This document shows, one piece after another, positions 6,413 through 45,815 of a stretch of DNA of 55,908 nt. The notes under the pieces are model-generated. The model did not search any database, had not been told where the DNA came from, and was given only the letters and a program-made list of their open reading frames with translations. Each line of letters opens with the position of its first letter. Positions within the stretch are counted from its first letter, which is position 1. Both the position numbers and the translations under genes were made by a program. Source of the DNA: Paracoccaceae bacterium (GTDB lineage: Bacteria; Pseudomonadota; Alphaproteobacteria; Rhodobacterales; Rhodobacteraceae); assembly GCA_947449875.1 (NCBI GenBank), contig CANFSY010000007.1, forward strand, positions 1 through 55,908. Reading direction: 5' to 3'.

Positions 6413-6781
6413 TTAGGGGGCTTTGGCCGTACGCTCTTGGCATAGGCACGCGATAGGCTGGGAATGGTCGCGCTGGATCAGCGCCTCTGGCGCAAGGCGG
6501 TCAAGGCGGTTGGCCAGATCAAGGTCAAGGTTTGACAGGCCGTGGCAGTCGTGCGTGGTCAGCGTGACATCTACCACGTTGTAAGCATTGGACCATTCCG
6601 GATGGTGGTTAAGCTTTTCGGCGATCAGGGCGGCGCGGCACATAAAGCCCCACGCCTCGATAAAGCTTTTGAACTTCCACACTTTGCGGATGGCGTCACG
6701 GTCAGGCACAGCGCCCCAACCGGTTTCCCCCAAGGCGGGAAGCGAAGCGGTGCGTTCGGCTTGGGTCAGCAGGATTGCCAT
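6413..6781 (-). CDS. phhB: 4a-hydroxytetrahydrobiopterin dehydratase
   Basis: EKLNHHPEWSNAYNVVDVTLTTHDCHGLSNLDLDLANRLDRLA is the pterin carbinolamine dehydratase motif. The C-terminal tail looks longer than usual. Confidence 0.8.
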   Translation of the reverse strand: MAILLTQAERTASLPALGETGWGAVPDRDAIRKVWKFKSFIEAWGFMCRAALIAEKLNHHPEWSNAYNVVDVTLTTHDCHGLSNLDLDLANRLDRLAPEALIQRDHSQPIACLCQERTAKAP

Positions 6782-6799
6782 GGGGTGGGCCTTTCAAGG

Positions 6800-7972
6800 T
6801 TAATCTTTTTCATCTTGCTCGGTCTTGCGGAATGGGCCATAGGCCGTCAGCACCTCGATCTCTTCGTCGACAGCGCGGCGTTCTTGGTCAAGATACCGCG
6901 CCACGGCTTTGGCAAAAGCGGGGTCGGTCAGCCAATGCAGCGAATGTACAGGCGTTGGCAGATAGCCCCGCGCCAGTTTGTGTTCGCCCTGCGCCCCAGC
7001 CTCGACCCGTTGCAACCCGCGGGTGATGGCCCAATCTATGGCCTGATAGTAGCACAGTTCGAAATGCAGACAGGAATAATTTTCTACGCAGCCCCAGTAT
7101 CGGCCAAACAGGGTGTCGCGCCCGATGAAGTTGAGCGCCCCCGCAACCGCGCGGTCGCCGTCGAAGGCCAAGCACAGCAGCGCATCGCCGCGCATCGTGT
7201 CGTGCAGTTCATGAAAAAAGGCGCGCGTCAGGTAGGGCGTGCCCCATTTGCGGCTGCCGGTGTCTTGGTAAAAGGCCCACATCGCGTCCCAATGCTGGGG
7301 CTGGATAGCGTCGCCCGTCAACATGCGGATCGTCAGGCCGTGGCCCTGCGCCGTCTCGCGCTCTTTGCGGATCATCTTGCGCTTGCGCGATGATAGATCG
7401 CCCAAAAAGGCGTCAAAACTGGCGTAGCTGTTGTTTTCCCAGTGAAATTGCTGCGTGATGCGGTGCAGTGTGCCTTGATGGCCTGCCAGTGCTGCCGCCT
7501 CTTGCTCTGTGCAAAAGGTGATGTGCAGCGAGGACAGGCCGTTGTCTTTGGTCAACCCAATCGCCGCATCCAGCAAAAGCGGGGATAGCGCGGCGTCGCC
7601 CAGAAAGCGGCGGCCGGTGGCGGGGGTGAAGGGTACGGCCGATTGCAGTTTGGGATAATAGGTGCCGCCTGCGTTTTCCAAGGCCTGCGCCCAGCCATGG
7701 TCAAAAATATATTCGCCTTGGCTGTTGGATTTCACATAAAGCGGCATGGCTGCCGCAGCGATGCCGTCGCGGTACAAAACCAGCGGCCGTGTTTGCCAGC
7801 CGGTGCCCTTGCCTGTCGATCGCGATCTGTCCAGCGCCAGAAGGAAGCGGTGGGCGGTGAATGGGTCAATCGGCACTCCGCCCTCTGGGTTGGCCAAACG
7901 GTCCCAATCGGCGGCGTCAATCTCGGCCATCCCGTTCAGCAGGGCAATTTCATAGGTCATCCGCGTCTCCAT
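6800..7972 (-). CDS. GNAT/FemAB-like N-acyltransferase (DUF482-type)
   Basis: Translation from METRMTYEIALLNG; motifs KRKMIRKERE, FYQDTGSRKWGTPYLTRAFF, RYWGC...LHFELCYYQAIDWAI..GL.RVEAGAQGEHKLARGY. Confidence 0.75.
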   Translation of the reverse strand: METRMTYEIALLNGMAEIDAADWDRLANPEGGVPIDPFTAHRFLLALDRSRSTGKGTGWQTRPLVLYRDGIAAAAMPLYVKSNSQGEYIFDHGWAQALENAGGTYYPKLQSAVPFTPATGRRFLGDAALSPLLLDAAIGLTKDNGLSSLHITFCTEQEAAALAGHQGTLHRITQQFHWENNSYASFDAFLGDLSSRKRKMIRKERETAQGHGLTIRMLTGDAIQPQHWDAMWAFYQDTGSRKWGTPYLTRAFFHELHDTMRGDALLCLAFDGDRAVAGALNFIGRDTLFGRYWGCVENYSCLHFELCYYQAIDWAITRGLQRVEAGAQGEHKLARGYLPTPVHSLHWLTDPAFAKAVARYLDQERRAVDEEIEVLTAYGPFRKTEQDEKD

Positions 7973-8003
7973 TCCGAGTATGATGGCGCGGGGCAGGGGG
8001 GCG

Positions 8004-8771
8004 TCAAGCGGGGAACGGGGCGGCGTAGTCTTCGAACGTGATGTTCTGCGCGATTTTGCGCGCCTCGGCCTCGGCCTCGGGCGAGCGGATGGTCCAGCAC
8101 AAGATCGCAGCCCCCTGGGCCTTAAGTTCGGCCACACGCGGGCGATGCAGATCGCGCGCTTCGTGGCTGATAAAGGATGACAGGCTGCGGTCGTAATCGG
8201 GAATTTCGCGCAAGCGGTCACAGGTCGCAGCGCTGAGCGGGGCCCAGTCAGCATCATAAGCCGAGGTGGTCAACCCGCGCGGGCGGTTGGGGCAAAGCCG
8301 CGCCATATGGGCGACAGACTCGGGGTTGAACGACATCAGCGCCACATCGCCGGAATAGCTTTCCAGATCGCGGGCGGTGGCCTGTTCCAAGCGCCCATCG
8401 GTTTGCGACATGGTCAGGGTCTGGTCCTTGATTTCCACCAACAGCGGCACGGCCCCGCCGATCAACGTCAGGACTTGGGCAAAGGTCGGGATCGTGTCAT
8501 CCGATCCGGCCAATTTGATACGGCCCAGTTCGGCAGCACTGCGGGCGTTGAGAGGTCCGGCCTCGTCGGTCAGGCGGCCCAGATCTTCGTCGTGAAAGAC
8601 CATAGCCACGCCATCTGCCGACAGTTGCAGATCAATTTCTATTCCATACCCCGCCGCACGGGCCGCCCTTATGGCCGAGGGCGAGTTTTCAATCCGCCTG
8701 CGGGCGCGGTCGTGCAGCGCGCGGTGGGCAATGGGGCAACGCACAAAGGCTGATGGCAGCGGCACGCGCAT
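8004..8771 (-). CDS. Glycerophosphodiester phosphodiesterase family protein
   Basis: IAHRALHDRARRRIENSPSAIRAARAAGYGIEIDLQLSADGVAMVFHDEDLGRLT: GDPD motif. Confidence 0.85.
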   Translation of the reverse strand: MRVPLPSAFVRCPIAHRALHDRARRRIENSPSAIRAARAAGYGIEIDLQLSADGVAMVFHDEDLGRLTDEAGPLNARSAAELGRIKLAGSDDTIPTFAQVLTLIGGAVPLLVEIKDQTLTMSQTDGRLEQATARDLESYSGDVALMSFNPESVAHMARLCPNRPRGLTTSAYDADWAPLSAATCDRLREIPDYDRSLSSFISHEARDLHRPRVAELKAQGAAILCWTIRSPEAEAEARKIAQNITFEDYAAPFPA

Positions 8772-8772
8772 C

Positions 8773-9237
8773 TTAGCGCACCTCGAAGATGGCTTCGATT
8801 TCAACGGCCACGCCCAGCGGCAAAGATACGGCTGACACCGCTGATCGCGCATGGCGGCCCGCCTCGCCCATCGCGGCGACAAGAAAGTCTGACGCGCCGT
8901 TGATCACCTTAGGCTGGTCAACAAAATCGGCGGTCGAGTTTACAAAGCCCACCAGTTTCACCGTCCGCACCACGCGGTCAAGGTCACCGCCGCAGGCGGC
9001 CTTAAGCTGGGCGAGCAAGGCAATCGCACAGGTTTTGGCCGCTTCTGCGCCCTGTGCCGCATCCAAATCAGCCCCAAGCTTGCCCGTGATCAACCCACCC
9101 GCCGCATCGCGGCTGATCTGACCGGAGATATAGACTTGGGCACCCACCTGAACGAAGGGCACGTAGTTTGCAGCGGGGGCCGGCGCATTGGGCAAGGTTA
9201 CGCCAAGCGCTGTCAGACGGGTTTCGATCGCAGACAT
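8773..9237 (-). CDS. RidA family protein
   Basis: PFVQVGAQVYISGQISRDAAGGLITGKLGAD...VVRTVKLVGFVNSTADF. Confidence 0.8.
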   Translation of the reverse strand: MSAIETRLTALGVTLPNAPAPAANYVPFVQVGAQVYISGQISRDAAGGLITGKLGADLDAAQGAEAAKTCAIALLAQLKAACGGDLDRVVRTVKLVGFVNSTADFVDQPKVINGASDFLVAAMGEAGRHARSAVSAVSLPLGVAVEIEAIFEVR

Positions 9238-9312
9238 GGTTCCTCCGAAAAATAGGGGTTGCGCAACGCTACGCTGCGGTCGTGACAGGGTAAAGACGGT
9301 GGGAAGCCGCCT

Positions 9313-10761
9313 TTAATTTTCGCGCATGGCCATACGGAAATAATCGGTGAAAGGTTTGAGAAGATAGGCCATGGGCGTATGGTCGCCCGTGCCGATATAG
9401 GCTTGCACCGGCATGCCGGGGACAAGCTTTTTATCCTTCAACTTGGCCAATTCCCCAGCTTCCAATATGATCTCGGCGCGGTAAAAGCTTTGGTGGCTGG
9501 CCTGATCGCTCATCGCATCGGCTGAAATGGTGGTCAAAGTGCCCACCAGTTGCGGTGTCGAGCGAGCGGAAAAGGAGGCAAAAGACACCCGCACCTCTTG
9601 GCCCAAATGCACCTCGTCCACGTGGATCGGCGGGATTTGCGCGATGATGATCAAGGGGCGATCTTGCGGAATGATATACATAATCGGGTCGGCAGGACGG
9701 ATCACCGACTGCGGCGTTGTCACCGCCAAGCCCAGCACAATGCCCGATACAGGCGCGCGAATTTCAAGGTGGTCGACCTGTTCGGTCAGGGCGCGCCGAC
9801 GCTCTGCCAGTTCAAGGGTCTTGTCGCCCATATCGCGCAACTGGGCATTGGCATCTTCGCGGCGGGCCGATTTGATTTGCAGGATCTGCAGCTTGGTTTC
9901 GGTGGCTTTGCCTTCGGATTGCGCAAGGTTCGATTGCAACTCGCCCCGATTGCCATCCAGCCGCGCCACTTCGCGCTTTAGGTCCATTATTCGGGCCGAT
10001 TGGGTCAAGCCCTTGTCCAGCAAAGTTTGTTGATCGGCGATTTCGGGTGACAGAAGGGCAATCTGGTCATCAAGCGCCGCCATCTGCGCCGCGATTCCCT
10101 GCCCTTGCGAGGCGATCTGGTCCAACCTTTTGCCCAACTGGTCGATCTGGGCGTTTTGGGTTTCCAGACGGGCGACGAAAAGGCGCTTTTGCCCTTCGAT
10201 CTGCTCGGCGACATCGGGGCGCGTTGCGGCAAGGTCGGTCAATTCGGCGGGAAAGACCAGTTCGGTCAGATCATCACGCTCGGCCTCTAGGCGGGCTTTG
10301 CGGGCCATGCCGTCAAACAATTGCCCCTCGACAATGGCCAGTTCCGCTTTGACCTGCGTGCCATCCAGCCGGATCAACAGGTCGCCGGATTTCACGGTTT
10401 GCGCCTCTTGCACGGCGATTTCGGCGACAACGCCGCCGTTGGGATGCTGCACAATTTGGCGGTTTTGTTCCACCTGCACCACACCCGGCGCCACGACCGC
10501 GCCCGAGATGGTGGTCATCATGCCCCAGCCGCCGAAAAAGGCGATCAGCAGGGCGATGGTTACAACACCTGTCCAAATCGGCTTGCGCGCTGACCAAGCC
10601 AAAGGGTTGGGCAAGGCCGACGGCGCAGGCTCACGCTTTGACACGGCGGTCGGCCGAGGAATATCCAGCGCCGTGGCCGCAAGCATTGCAGGAACCGGAG
10701 CGTCATTTTCGGGGCGATCCGCGGGGGTTTGGTTGGCATCCGATGGGGGAAGATTGGTCAT
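9313..10761 (-). CDS. Type I secretion periplasmic adaptor, HlyD family
   Basis: GAVVAPGVVQVEQNRQIVQHPNGGVVAEIAVQEAQTVKSGDLLIRLDGTQ...ADPIMYIIPQDRPLIIIAQIPPIHVDEVHLGQEVRVSFASF. Confidence 0.9.
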   Translation of the reverse strand: MTNLPPSDANQTPADRPENDAPVPAMLAATALDIPRPTAVSKREPAPSALPNPLAWSARKPIWTGVVTIALLIAFFGGWGMMTTISGAVVAPGVVQVEQNRQIVQHPNGGVVAEIAVQEAQTVKSGDLLIRLDGTQVKAELAIVEGQLFDGMARKARLEAERDDLTELVFPAELTDLAATRPDVAEQIEGQKRLFVARLETQNAQIDQLGKRLDQIASQGQGIAAQMAALDDQIALLSPEIADQQTLLDKGLTQSARIMDLKREVARLDGNRGELQSNLAQSEGKATETKLQILQIKSARREDANAQLRDMGDKTLELAERRRALTEQVDHLEIRAPVSGIVLGLAVTTPQSVIRPADPIMYIIPQDRPLIIIAQIPPIHVDEVHLGQEVRVSFASFSARSTPQLVGTLTTISADAMSDQASHQSFYRAEIILEAGELAKLKDKKLVPGMPVQAYIGTGDHTPMAYLLKPFTDYFRMAMREN

Positions 10762-42838: not shown

Positions 42839-42919
42839 GGCTCTCACCCCAGTTATATGGGCTCTTCTTAGACGGGTTCGGCGCGTCTTGGAAGAGCGGT
42901 TAAGGGTGCGCCCGCTGGG

Positions 42920-42924
42920 GGTTT
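42920..42924 (+). repeat. Left copy of 5-bp target-site duplication (GGTTT)
   Basis: GGTTT immediately left of element terminus TG at 42925; identical to 45770-45774. Confidence 0.85.
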
Positions 42925-42931
42925 TGACGCG

Positions 42932-43015
42932 TTTCAGAAGGTTTGATACGGGGTCGAAAAAATTGCAAGCATAATCAATGCTTTGCGAAAGGGCGATTTC
43001 ATTAGGTTTGATACG
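42932..43015. promoter_or_regulatory. Left-end transposase-binding repeats L1 and L2 (predicted)
   Basis: tttcagaaggtttgatacg (42932-42950) and tttcattaggtttgatacg (42997-43015). Confidence 0.75.
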
Positions 43016-43112
43016 TTTTGGGCTGTTTAGGCGCATTTGACGGGTTTTCGCAGTCGGGTGTCAAAAATTATGTAATGAAATCAATGAGCGCTTTTGCTGA
43101 GACTGTAAAAAT

Positions 43113-43132
43113 CGTGCGCGGTTTTGCGCACG
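43113..43132 (-). terminator. Hairpin downstream of the repressor-like gene
   Basis: CGTGCGC-GGTTTT-GCGCACG, 7-bp perfect stem, followed on the minus strand by ATTTTTAC. Confidence 0.6.
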
Positions 43133-43140
43133 ACGCACGA

Positions 43141-43623
43141 CTATTTTGCCGCGTCAACGAACGCTTTAAGCTCTTCTAAAGTCCGCTCTGCGAAACCTTC
43201 GCAAACTTGAACGGCGGCGTCTTCGGGGTACAGATCGCGCTCCTCTGCCAAGTCATGGACTCGCATTGCAAACTCTTCGGCCAACGAAGGCAGTCGCTCC
43301 GCCCACCACTTTAGTCGGTCGCCCTCGCTTTCGAAGCCGTCCATTCGATCCAGTTTGTTGAACAGCCAAAGAACCGGAATGTATAACCACCAACCCGCTT
43401 CACCTACGGGCACGGTGATGCGAGCAAGTGGCGCTGACGGCAGGATGGTGTCTAAAGGTACATCTTCAAGTCGTGCAATCAGCGAGAAAACCTCGTGGTT
43501 GGGCAACCTTCGGCCCGCCTCATAGTTCGACCAAGTTGTCCGTTCGACACCGAGTGTCTCTGCGAACTCTGCAAGCGTCCTATCCCCGCGCACCTCGCGG
43601 AGTTTTGCTCCCATAGCCTTCAT
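43141..43623 (-). CDS. XRE-family HTH protein, presumptive prophage repressor
   Basis: MKAMGAKLREVRGDRTLAEFAETLGVERTTWSNYEAGRRLPNHEVFSLIARLEDVPLDTIL; leftward orientation at the left end, as expected for a Mu-like c gene. Confidence 0.82.
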   Translation of the reverse strand: MKAMGAKLREVRGDRTLAEFAETLGVERTTWSNYEAGRRLPNHEVFSLIARLEDVPLDTILPSAPLARITVPVGEAGWWLYIPVLWLFNKLDRMDGFESEGDRLKWWAERLPSLAEEFAMRVHDLAEERDLYPEDAAVQVCEGFAERTLEELKAFVDAAK

Positions 43624-43634
43624 TGTTTCGCTAA

Positions 43635-43645
43635 CGTGTAACACG
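43635..43645. promoter_or_regulatory. Candidate operator palindrome between divergent repressor and gp16-like genes
   Basis: CGTGT-A-ACACG, perfect 5-bp arms, in the about 33-bp divergent intergenic space. Confidence 0.5.
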
Positions 43646-43656
43646 AAGGGTGATAC

Positions 43657-43899
43657 TTGGAACAGAAAAAACAATCTGGGATTTCCACTCAAAGGCTTGC
43701 GCTGGCCAAGAGTCGGTTCACCGCCGAGGGCGTCTCTATTCGGAGTTGGGCACTTGACCGTGGCTACAACCCGCGAACGGTTTACGCAGTCCTACAAGGC
43801 AAGCTCGAATGCCGGTATGGCACGAGCCACCGGATTGCCGTTGACCTTGGATTGAAGGCGGCGGGCGGCGAAAATCTTCAGTTCCGTGTGGCGGCATAG
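43657..43899 (+). CDS. Phage-associated BcepMu gp16-like/Ner-like DNA-binding protein
   Basis: TTG start; FTAEGVSIRSWALDRGYNPRTVYAVLQGKLECRYGTSHRIAVDLGLKA resembles the BcepMu gp16 family. Confidence 0.75.
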   Translation: MEQKKQSGISTQRLALAKSRFTAEGVSIRSWALDRGYNPRTVYAVLQGKLECRYGTSHRIAVDLGLKAAGGENLQFRVAA

Positions 43900-43900
43900 A

Positions 43901-44815
43901 ATGACTTCTGCGCCTTTCAGGCCCTCCCCGCCGCCACCCAAGTTGGCAATTGGACCAGTAGTTTCCGTGGTTGAGTTGCTTGGCATCGGAGGTATTCCGA
44001 AGCATCGCACTTCCGCGACACGTTGGTTGATCAAGGCCGAAGTGCCGATTGTGAAGCTTGAAGGAGATGCAAGACGGCCTGAAGCCGTGAAGCTTTCCGA
44101 CCTTCCCGCCGAAGTCCGCCGCGCTGTCATCGAGCGCGACGTTGCCGCCGCTGGTTTGCCTCTGGGCACCTATGACGAGGCGGCGCACCAAGCTTTGGCT
44201 CAAGCAACGCCGAAGATGCGCGATGTGGCCGAACGCAAGGCGGCAATCGCGCGTGATCTGATGACGCTTGTCCACCGCCCCAACCTGCACCTCACCGCCT
44301 TGAACGCTCAGGAACCCGTCATGCCACCAGACACCGCCCCCAATCCTGCCGCCGAACAAGCCGCCTTCATTTCCATGGTGATCGAGCTGTTTGGCCTGCC
44401 GCCAAACACACCGCTATCCGACGCCGCTGCGATGCTGAAAGCCAAGCGCGAGGCGATGCCCGATCCGGGCAAATACATGCCCGTTGCGGCGGTGCACGAA
44501 ATGCTGGCAGACCGCTTGGCCGAACGCCGGGCAACGGATCAGGGCCGCGCTCAAGAAAAGGTCCGCGTTGCCATCCAGCAACGCTATATCACGCCTGGAA
44601 TGCGCGACTGGGCACTTGCCCTGTGCCAATCGGACGAAGGGTCGTTTGATGCTTTCCTGACCAAGGTCGGGCCGGTGTTTGCGTATTTGGGCGGCTCCTC
44701 GTTCAAAGCTGACACCGCAAAACCAGCGCACTTGCCGCATGAACCCAGACCGACCGATCTTGAAGCCGCGATGTGCGAGCAACTGGGCCTGCCGCCCGGT
44801 TCCCTGTCCAGATAG
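43901..44815 (+). CDS. In-frame fusion: MuA-like N-terminal DNA-binding region joined to Mu protease-I-like C-terminal region
   Basis: N-part SVVELLGIGGIPKHRTSATRWLIKAEVPIVKLEGDARRPEAVKLSDLPAEVRRAVIERD. C-part HLTALNAQEPVMPP...MVIELFGLPPNTPLSDAAAMLKAKRE...YMPVAAVHEMLADRLAERR...ITPGMRDWALALCQSDEGSFDAFLTKVGPVFAYL...DLEAAMCEQLGLPPGSLSR. No catalytic DDE core. Confidence 0.75.
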   Translation: MTSAPFRPSPPPPKLAIGPVVSVVELLGIGGIPKHRTSATRWLIKAEVPIVKLEGDARRPEAVKLSDLPAEVRRAVIERDVAAAGLPLGTYDEAAHQALAQATPKMRDVAERKAAIARDLMTLVHRPNLHLTALNAQEPVMPPDTAPNPAAEQAAFISMVIELFGLPPNTPLSDAAAMLKAKREAMPDPGKYMPVAAVHEMLADRLAERRATDQGRAQEKVRVAIQQRYITPGMRDWALALCQSDEGSFDAFLTKVGPVFAYLGGSSFKADTAKPAHLPHEPRPTDLEAAMCEQLGLPPGSLSR

Positions 44816-44940
44816 CCATCGTGCCGGGGTGGGCAGCGCCCCGGTGTGACACGCGCCGCCTCAGACCCGGCGCGTACAAGGCCCCCGACCGTCATTGTCC
44901 TGGGTGGCAGTCGGGGGTTGTCCATTTGATATGAGGCCCC

Positions 44941-45288
44941 GTGTTGAAAGATCTCGCCCGACCCATGCCCAAACCGACCGCACAGGTCGCGGCCTACGTG
45001 AAGGTGTTGGGCCCCGATCTGGCTGTCACGTTCCTCTTGTCCTTTGGCGGCGCGGAATTGATCCTGTCCGCTGATCCAAAAGGACGCTCCAGCGTCGAGG
45101 CGCTCTTGGGCTATGAGAAGGCTAAGGCCCTTGCCGCCCAACCCCGCCTGCAAAAACGTGTGCCCTTGGCCAAGCGCTGGCTTGCAGCGATGCTGCACTG
45201 GCAAGGCCACTCCACCGCAGCCTTCGCCCGGCAACTCCGCGTCTCTGACGTGTCCGTGCGCCGTTGGTTGAAGGAATGGAAAGCATGA
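44941..45288 (+). CDS. Mor-like transcription activator/HTH phage protein
   Basis: VKVLGPDLAVTFLLSFGGAELILSADPKGRSSVEALLGYEKAKALA...VPLAKRWLAAMLHWQGHSTAAFARQLRVSDVSVRRWLKEWKA; Mor-type layout with C-terminal HTH. Confidence 0.65.
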   Translation: MLKDLARPMPKPTAQVAAYVKVLGPDLAVTFLLSFGGAELILSADPKGRSSVEALLGYEKAKALAAQPRLQKRVPLAKRWLAAMLHWQGHSTAAFARQLRVSDVSVRRWLKEWKA

Positions 45289-45668
45289 CACAGGGCAACA
45301 CCCAAGACCTGATCACCCGCGCCCTCGCCACCAACGCCAAGCTTGGCGCGGATTTGGCAGAGCTATTCAGCATTGTCGCCGCCATCGGCAAGAGCCTTTC
45401 AACGGCGCTTGAAACACCCGGTAAACCGTCTTTGGACGCCGCCCCCAAGACCCGCGAGGAAGTCTTCGCAGCCCACCGGCGCGCGCATCGCAGAGGACAC
45501 CCCGGCAAGATCGAAGGCGACCCGGAACTAGAGGCCTTCATCCTCGCCCGGATCGACACCTTGACCTTTGGTCAAATCGTGTCTGAAGTGCGTGCCACCT
45601 TCCCGCCTGACCGCCATTGCAGTCATTCTGGCGTTGGCCGATGGTGGAAAAAACAGAGCGCCGATTGA
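45285..45668 (+). CDS. Uncharacterised Mu-like phage protein
   Basis: ATGA overlap with upstream gene; RGHPGKIEGDPELEAFILARIDTLTFGQIVSEVRATFPPDRHCSHSGVGRWWKK. Confidence 0.55.
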   Translation: MTQGNTQDLITRALATNAKLGADLAELFSIVAAIGKSLSTALETPGKPSLDAAPKTREEVFAAHRRAHRRGHPGKIEGDPELEAFILARIDTLTFGQIVSEVRATFPPDRHCSHSGVGRWWKKQSAD

Positions 45669-45724
45669 GGCGCGCGGCAATGACCTCAATCGGCTGTAAT
45701 CAGGTGCTGGCGGCTAATATCGTG

Positions 45725-45762
45725 TCAGACCGTCTGAAATGTGGGTATCAGACTATTTGAAA
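45725..45762. promoter_or_regulatory. Right-end transposase-binding repeats R2 and R1 (predicted, inverted relative to L1/L2)
   Basis: tcagaccgtctgaaa (45725-45739) and tcagactatttgaaa (45748-45762). Reverse complements TTTCAGACGGTCTGACACG and TTTCAAATAGTCTGATACC align with L1/L2. Confidence 0.75.
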
Positions 45763-45769
45763 GCACACA

Positions 45770-45774
45770 GGTTT
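45770..45774 (+). repeat. Right copy of 5-bp target-site duplication (GGTTT)
   Basis: GGTTT immediately right of terminal CA (45768-45769). Confidence 0.85.
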
Positions 45775-45815
45775 CCCACCCCCAGACCCCCGGGGGATAT
45801 TTAGGCCCATGTGAA
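45775..45815 (+). repeat. Dispersed GC-rich hairpin element copy B (right part; left part at 42915-42924)
   Basis: cccaCCCCCAGacccccgggggatatttaggcccatgtgaaag; the complementary CTGGGGG arm is at 42915-42921 across the mobile element. Confidence 0.7.

Follow-up and report, generated by a model that had tools for sequence, protein, structure and literature searches.

An internally deleted Mu-type element in a Rhodobacteraceae genome and its probable origin from compact transposing elements that carry phage head genes

Introduction

Mu-type transposition generates 5-bp duplications and uses paired transposase-binding sites close to TG/CA termini. Of the genes treated below, gpT, gpI and the tape measure encode assembly proteins of tailed phages. 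Small integrated elements with a capsid protein of their own have been described as cfPICI, the definition of which includes a portal, connectors, both terminases and an HNH nuclease (PMC10690885), while none of the satellite families listed in PMC11389934 is presented in that paper as a Mu-type transposing element. In the literature that we searched, which covered few subscription papers, no description of a Mu-type satellite was found. The DNA analysed here (the window, 55,908 nucleotides of a Paracoccaceae bacterium contig) contains a short element that the original prediction had called a natural mini-Mu and had derived from a roughly full-length Mu-like phage. The label is right, and the element is an internally deleted derivative of a compact transposing element carrying capsid genes, a descent that is well supported. 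The compact 7-9 kb Mu-like family to which it belongs, with its own transposase and head genes, is apparently undescribed.

Ends, target duplication and empty site

The element spans positions 42925-45769 (2,845 bp), with TG at 42925 and CA at 45768-45769 (Table 1). The TG/CA ends, the paired 19-bp sites at each end, the distance of 7 nt between either terminus and its first site, and the flanking 5-bp duplication GGTTT had been read from the window beforehand and are all present; the two sites of the right end likewise exist, but their coordinates had been given somewhat short and are extended in Table 1. With up to two mismatches allowed, the 19-bp consensus occurs four times in the whole window, each time at an end of the element (no mismatch in L1, L2 and R2, two in R1). 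The second site follows 65 bp further in on the left and 23 bp further in on the right, a spacing that does not reflect chance, since independent elements show the identical arrangement. The joined flanks run uninterrupted in four genomes of the same genus, and in one of these (G006, locus L142) the empty site is exactly CTGGGGGTTTCCCACCCCCAG, as had been predicted, with a single GGTTT. The TG/CA ends with paired inverted site arrays, together with the 5-bp duplication and the empty site, confirm that the element is genuine, was transposed by a Mu-type mechanism and was inserted at its present site. The insertion site is flanked by what we take, from reading of the ORFs, to be pdxJ and a DUF2062-type gene. 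The empty target (42914-42924 joined to 45775-45784) has the sequence CTGGGGG-TTTCCCA-CCCCCAG, a short hairpin with a minus-strand gene on either side and possibly a terminator.

Table 1. Features of the element and its borders, in window coordinates
Feature	Coordinates	Strand	Remarks
Target-site duplication GGTTT, left copy	42920..42924	.	single copy in orthologous empty site
Left terminus TGACGCG	42925..42931	+	7 nt ahead of L1
L1 transposase-binding-type site TTTCAGAAGGTTTGATACG	42932..42950	+	+7 offset also in relatives
L2 site TTTCATTAGGTTTGATACG	42997..43015	+	offset +72 (71-73) in 12/13 elements
c-type repressor (HTH), 183 aa	43141..43692	-	PF13560 E 1.2e-8, phrog_8 E 1e-9
Ner-like small HTH protein, 80 aa	43657..43899	+	phrog_925 E 9.5e-19
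In-frame deletion fusion A::I, 309 aa	43886..44815	+	phrog_310, phrog_328, PF10123
Mor/C-like late transcription activator, 115 aa	44941..45288	+	phrog_836 E 1.9e-14
P5, family-specific protein: long N-terminal helix and C-terminal HTH	45264..45668	+	model mean pLDDT 89.6
R2 site TTTCAGACGGTCTGACACG	45721..45739	-	offset +30 kept (29-31)
R1 site TTTCAAATAGTCTGATACC	45744..45762	-	offset +7 kept
Right terminus GCACACA (inverted TGTGTGC)	45763..45769	+	
Target-site duplication GGTTT, right copy	45770..45774	.	single copy in orthologous empty site

Genes of the window copy and the A::I fusion

From left to right the window copy carries a minus-strand repressor gene, a Ner-like HTH gene, an ORF of 309 codons, a late activator and P5, the translation start of which is probably at 45291. 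The repressor and the Ner-like protein share 56% and 69% identity, respectively, with their homologues in the full element L135, and the late activator 71% with that of another genome of the genus (G009). The 309-aa ORF is a fusion: its N-terminal part (43961-44269) corresponds to residues 3-105 of an intact MuA-like transposase, that is, to the DNA-binding domain, and its C-terminal half (44261-44806) to residues 138-304 of the Mu gpI protease/scaffold. The two matches overlap by nine bases, which is consistent with a deletion at short homology, as far as the sequence can tell. A tblastn search found no match for the fusion protein in phages. The fusion marks a deletion between intact paired ends, so that the predicted internal loss with retention of both ends was borne out. 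A DDE-bearing A and a B of its own are absent, the copy having retained residues ~3-105 of A and no B, and it is therefore a non-autonomous member, as had also been anticipated. Since the deletion removed most of A, the copy would transpose only with A supplied in trans. A direct search for A found no further copy in its own genome, the assembly of which is 86.6% complete. The same genome contains a second left end of the compact family (L005, contig C98, from 9853 downwards, ~200 bp of homologous sequence), for which a right end was looked for and not found.

The family of compact elements

Searching with the 309-aa ORF led to the genomes of Roseobacter sp. HKCCD6576 and Sediminimonas qiaohouensis. 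In both, the C-terminal half forms part of an intact gpI, which adjoins the right end of a ~7.5-8 kb Mu-like element. The intact element of S. qiaohouensis DSM 21189, an environmental type strain, measures 7,951 bp (NZ_AUIJ01000001; locus L004, with L060 being the same element). When the intact gpI was compared with 397 genomes of the family, strong matches formed one group and weaker ones, from true phages, another. In Rhodobacteraceae genomes and in metagenome contigs, compact relatives occupy about 40 distinct places. Both ends were located in 12 further elements, 11 of them with 5-bp duplications and nearly all 6.7-9.0 kb long. The first eight intact elements, obtained by locus extraction and end-finding, measure 7,496-8,892 bp and have perfect duplications; others are L132 (6,716 bp), L135 (8,527 bp) and L063 (10,815 bp, including an insertion of 2.6 kb). 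The twelfth, L236, has a matching left end and lies on a metagenome contig that breaks off precisely at its right terminus. The offsets of L1/L2 (7/72) and R1/R2 (7/30) are nearly constant across the elements, the window copy included, the largest departure from this geometry being L132, which has a variant site motif. The insertion in L063 (4164-6752) is shared by L064, L065 and L067, all copies of genome G460, and is apparently a separate mobile element.

In L236, 116 bp precede the left terminus. Two IMG/VR contigs (L159 and L236) end exactly at the right terminus of the element, as expected if it occupies many sites or if variable host DNA is packaged along with it, and several insertion sites in a population explain this equally well.

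Shortened copies other than that of the window occur in four genomes (G050, G055, G373 and G437). The window A::I and the B::I of G055 are in-frame fusions, and the C-terminal part of I is retained in several deleted copies, which, in these few cases, may reflect either selection for the scaffold-like half or deletion geometry alone. One genome (G081, L123-L131) harbours about ten P5-related copies, mostly truncated or frameshifted, which form a swarm of decayed copies; decayed copies are also present in G460.

Gene content and order

The core genes of the compact elements are the repressor, A, B, gp16/GemA, T, I, the activator and P5, with P5 located beside the right end. The late activator precedes T in some members and follows I in others, and some members have a phage decoration protein beside T and I as well as a gpG/neck homologue near P5. 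In the compact family gpT comes before gpI, the reverse of the order in all phages examined, so that T-decoration-I mirrors the phage order I-decoration-T, although all genes lie on one strand; the window copy itself has lost T. Across a gene-order survey of 308 loci, in which short contigs limit the counts of absence, TerL, portal, F, TerS and adaptor genes were found in none of the 70 T>I loci listed (partly overlapping, about 40 distinct places), 56 of which have P5, whereas the 146 I>T loci include TerL in 47, a portal in 78, F in 90 and P5 in none. To the limit of the homology search, terminase, portal and lysis genes are absent from the elements bounded by both ends as well as from the other T>I loci, and the same holds for tail genes, with two tape-measure genes (PF10145 and TMP_2) as the exception. 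In L236 a 700-aa tape measure (6597-8699) follows gpT and replaces gpI; in L132 a 627-aa tape measure (8407-10290) replaces both T and I, between A and B on one side and the activator and P5 on the other. The compact elements thus do not have a complete virion gene set of their own.

P5 was found in 32 of the 397 family genomes, in none of 50,697 phage records and in no plasmid record; a class-wide sample contained essentially no P5, with two marginal matches only. The P5 HTH bears a remote and weak resemblance to the gp27 small terminase of phages (hhalign P 1.5e-4, probability 52%, controls at least 0.056). Neither Pfam nor NCBIfam calls P5 a terminase of the gp27 type, and Foldseek searches of PDB and BFVD with the P5 model gave nothing significant. 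One element has a 245-aa ORF between P5 and the right end (L083:7881-8618, minus strand), a possible cargo gene, for which Pfam gave no match and phrog_17296, a group whose function is not known, was the only hit; PADLOC returned nothing for this ORF or for P5. Of three alphaproteobacterial plasmid records that matched gpI and were considered as possible compact elements, two have the ordinary phage order and one is unannotated.

Phylogeny, selection and transposase

The compact gpT matches the Pfam gpT model almost from end to end (E 1.4e-124). A tree of 146 gpT sequences places the 26 from compact elements on one side of a single branch, within the Mu-like phages and close to the vB_RhkS_P1 group. 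Support for the whole clade is moderate (SH-aLRT 81) and reaches 98 for 24 of the compact sequences, without two early members. To judge from the tree, the clade fits a single capture of a phage head module, which would then have diversified. T, I, the Mor activator and P5 are under purifying selection in the closest pairs (dN/dS 0.07-0.18), distant pairs being less informative because of saturation. Transposase A of the intact relatives has conserved DDE residues (D257, D322 and E377) and is accompanied by B; its identity to the nearest phage transposases is ~30%, the best among the matches listed. Mu phages that reside in the same genomes as compact elements carry another lineage of A, and none of the end sites of the compact elements was found in them. 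Compact elements and Mu phages occur together in seven genomes, compared with 3.0 expected (P 0.02 in a small, post hoc test).

Proposed lifestyle and alternative explanations

We consider it probable that the window copy arose by deletion, as a non-autonomous derivative, from Rhodobacteraceae-wide Mu-type elements of 7-9 kb for which a helper-dependent cycle can be proposed. That the compact elements live as satellites of Mu-like phages is slightly favoured on present evidence. The fuller version, in which they would spread by Mu-type replicative transposition and supply only the size-setting parts (capsid and scaffold/protease, or the tail tape measure), with motor, portal and tail coming from Mu-like phages, is plausible yet tentative, a little under an even chance. 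In such a cycle, relief of the repressor would allow A and B to replicate the intact element by transposition, and the late activator would then switch on T, I and P5. From T and I the element would build a shell of its own, of a size suited to a small genome, while portal, motor and tail would be borrowed from a co-resident Mu-like phage, and P5 would perhaps steer the motor of the helper to the DNA of the element. The window copy would be a leaner form: its in-frame deletion from A to I took away B, gp16 and T entirely, together with the greater part of A and the protease half of I, and left both ends, the control genes (repressor and activator), P5 and the scaffold-like half of I. The near-constant length, the co-occurrence with Mu phages and the likeness of P5 to gp27 weakly favour a satellite; the variable structural gene set, with L132 having a tape measure only, and the decay of some copies count against this reading.

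Among the alternatives, transposons that keep a capsid, scaffold or tape measure as anti-phage weapons, poisoning the assembly of Mu-like phages and packaging nothing, would explain why assembly genes alone were kept, why two members have a tape measure and why the scaffold-like half of I survives in deleted copies. We hold this to be unlikely, since protease, decoration and neck genes standing together in order suggest a functioning shell more than isolated decoys; moreover, interference and packaging are compatible, as known satellites show. Less likely again is an ordinary Mu-family transposon lineage in which the phage genes are useless leftovers kept by chance: the many deleted or frameshifted copies, as in G081 and G460, are what it would produce, but the single capsid clade, the intact ORFs across many genera, the full-length gpT and the low dN/dS in close pairs speak against it.

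The origin put forward in the original prediction, by which a full-length Mu-like phage collapsed directly in this lineage, accounts for the Mu-type ends, the Mu-derived genes and the internal deletion seen in the A::I fusion. It is nevertheless very improbable, because P5, absent from phage records, the T>I order and the single capsid clade set the family apart; the right-hand genes that were retained, their order and the end spacing fit a distinct family of ~8-kb elements and not phages, the left-hand genes and the activator of the window copy match compact relatives, and the co-resident Mu phages have a different A and lack end sites of the window type. What the deletion removed from the window copy was about 5 kb of a compact element and not about 35 kb of phage genome, although a Mu-like phage does stand among the ancestors of the family as a whole. 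Least probable of all is a capsid-only nanocompartment, or cargo resembling a gene-transfer agent, on a transposon independent of phages, to which gpT and a protease in the absence of portal and terminase might point, as the late activator, neck protein, tape measure and protease/scaffold are parts of a tailed-phage assembly line and no cargo-loading gene is visible.

If the compact elements are indeed satellites, satellites would extend beyond integrators that use site-specific recombinases, with one lineage coupling transposition to a partial capsid kit. The family would then provide natural tests of how few head genes suffice to redirect a helper and of whether shell and tail-length genes are by themselves enough to set particle size, and it would show how deletion derivatives, that is, natural mini-Mu elements, arise from compact elements. 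It may also account for small "Mu prophage fragments" of the sort that prophage-finding software would log as decayed.

Comparison with known systems

The Rhodovulum phages RS1 and vB_RhkS_P1 and Rhodobacter phage RC1 share with the compact elements A and B, a phrog_836-type activator, gpT, the decoration protein, gpI and gpG homologues, and vB_RhkS_P1 also has a GemA-type gene. They differ in their size of 38-40 kb, in possessing terminase, portal, tail and lysis genes, in having I before T and another lineage of A, and in lacking P5. Like the compact elements, cfPICI and the capsid-encoding satellites of Streptomyces are small and integrated and have their own capsid protein and no tails, and cfPICI also have their own protease. 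The compact elements are however not cfPICI, because portal, TerL and TerS, which that definition requires, are absent from them by homology search; they moreover integrate by a Mu-type DDE transposase. Small size and possession of their own replication and regulatory genes are shared with the P4, PICI, PLE and PICMI satellites, whose particles depend on a phage, as those of the compact elements would in the proposed cycle. The window copy, finally, resembles laboratory mini-Mu and MITEs in that both ends are kept, genes are lost and transposase is needed in trans, but it is natural, has retained regulators along with a scaffold-like fusion and P5, and originated from the compact family and not from phage Mu.
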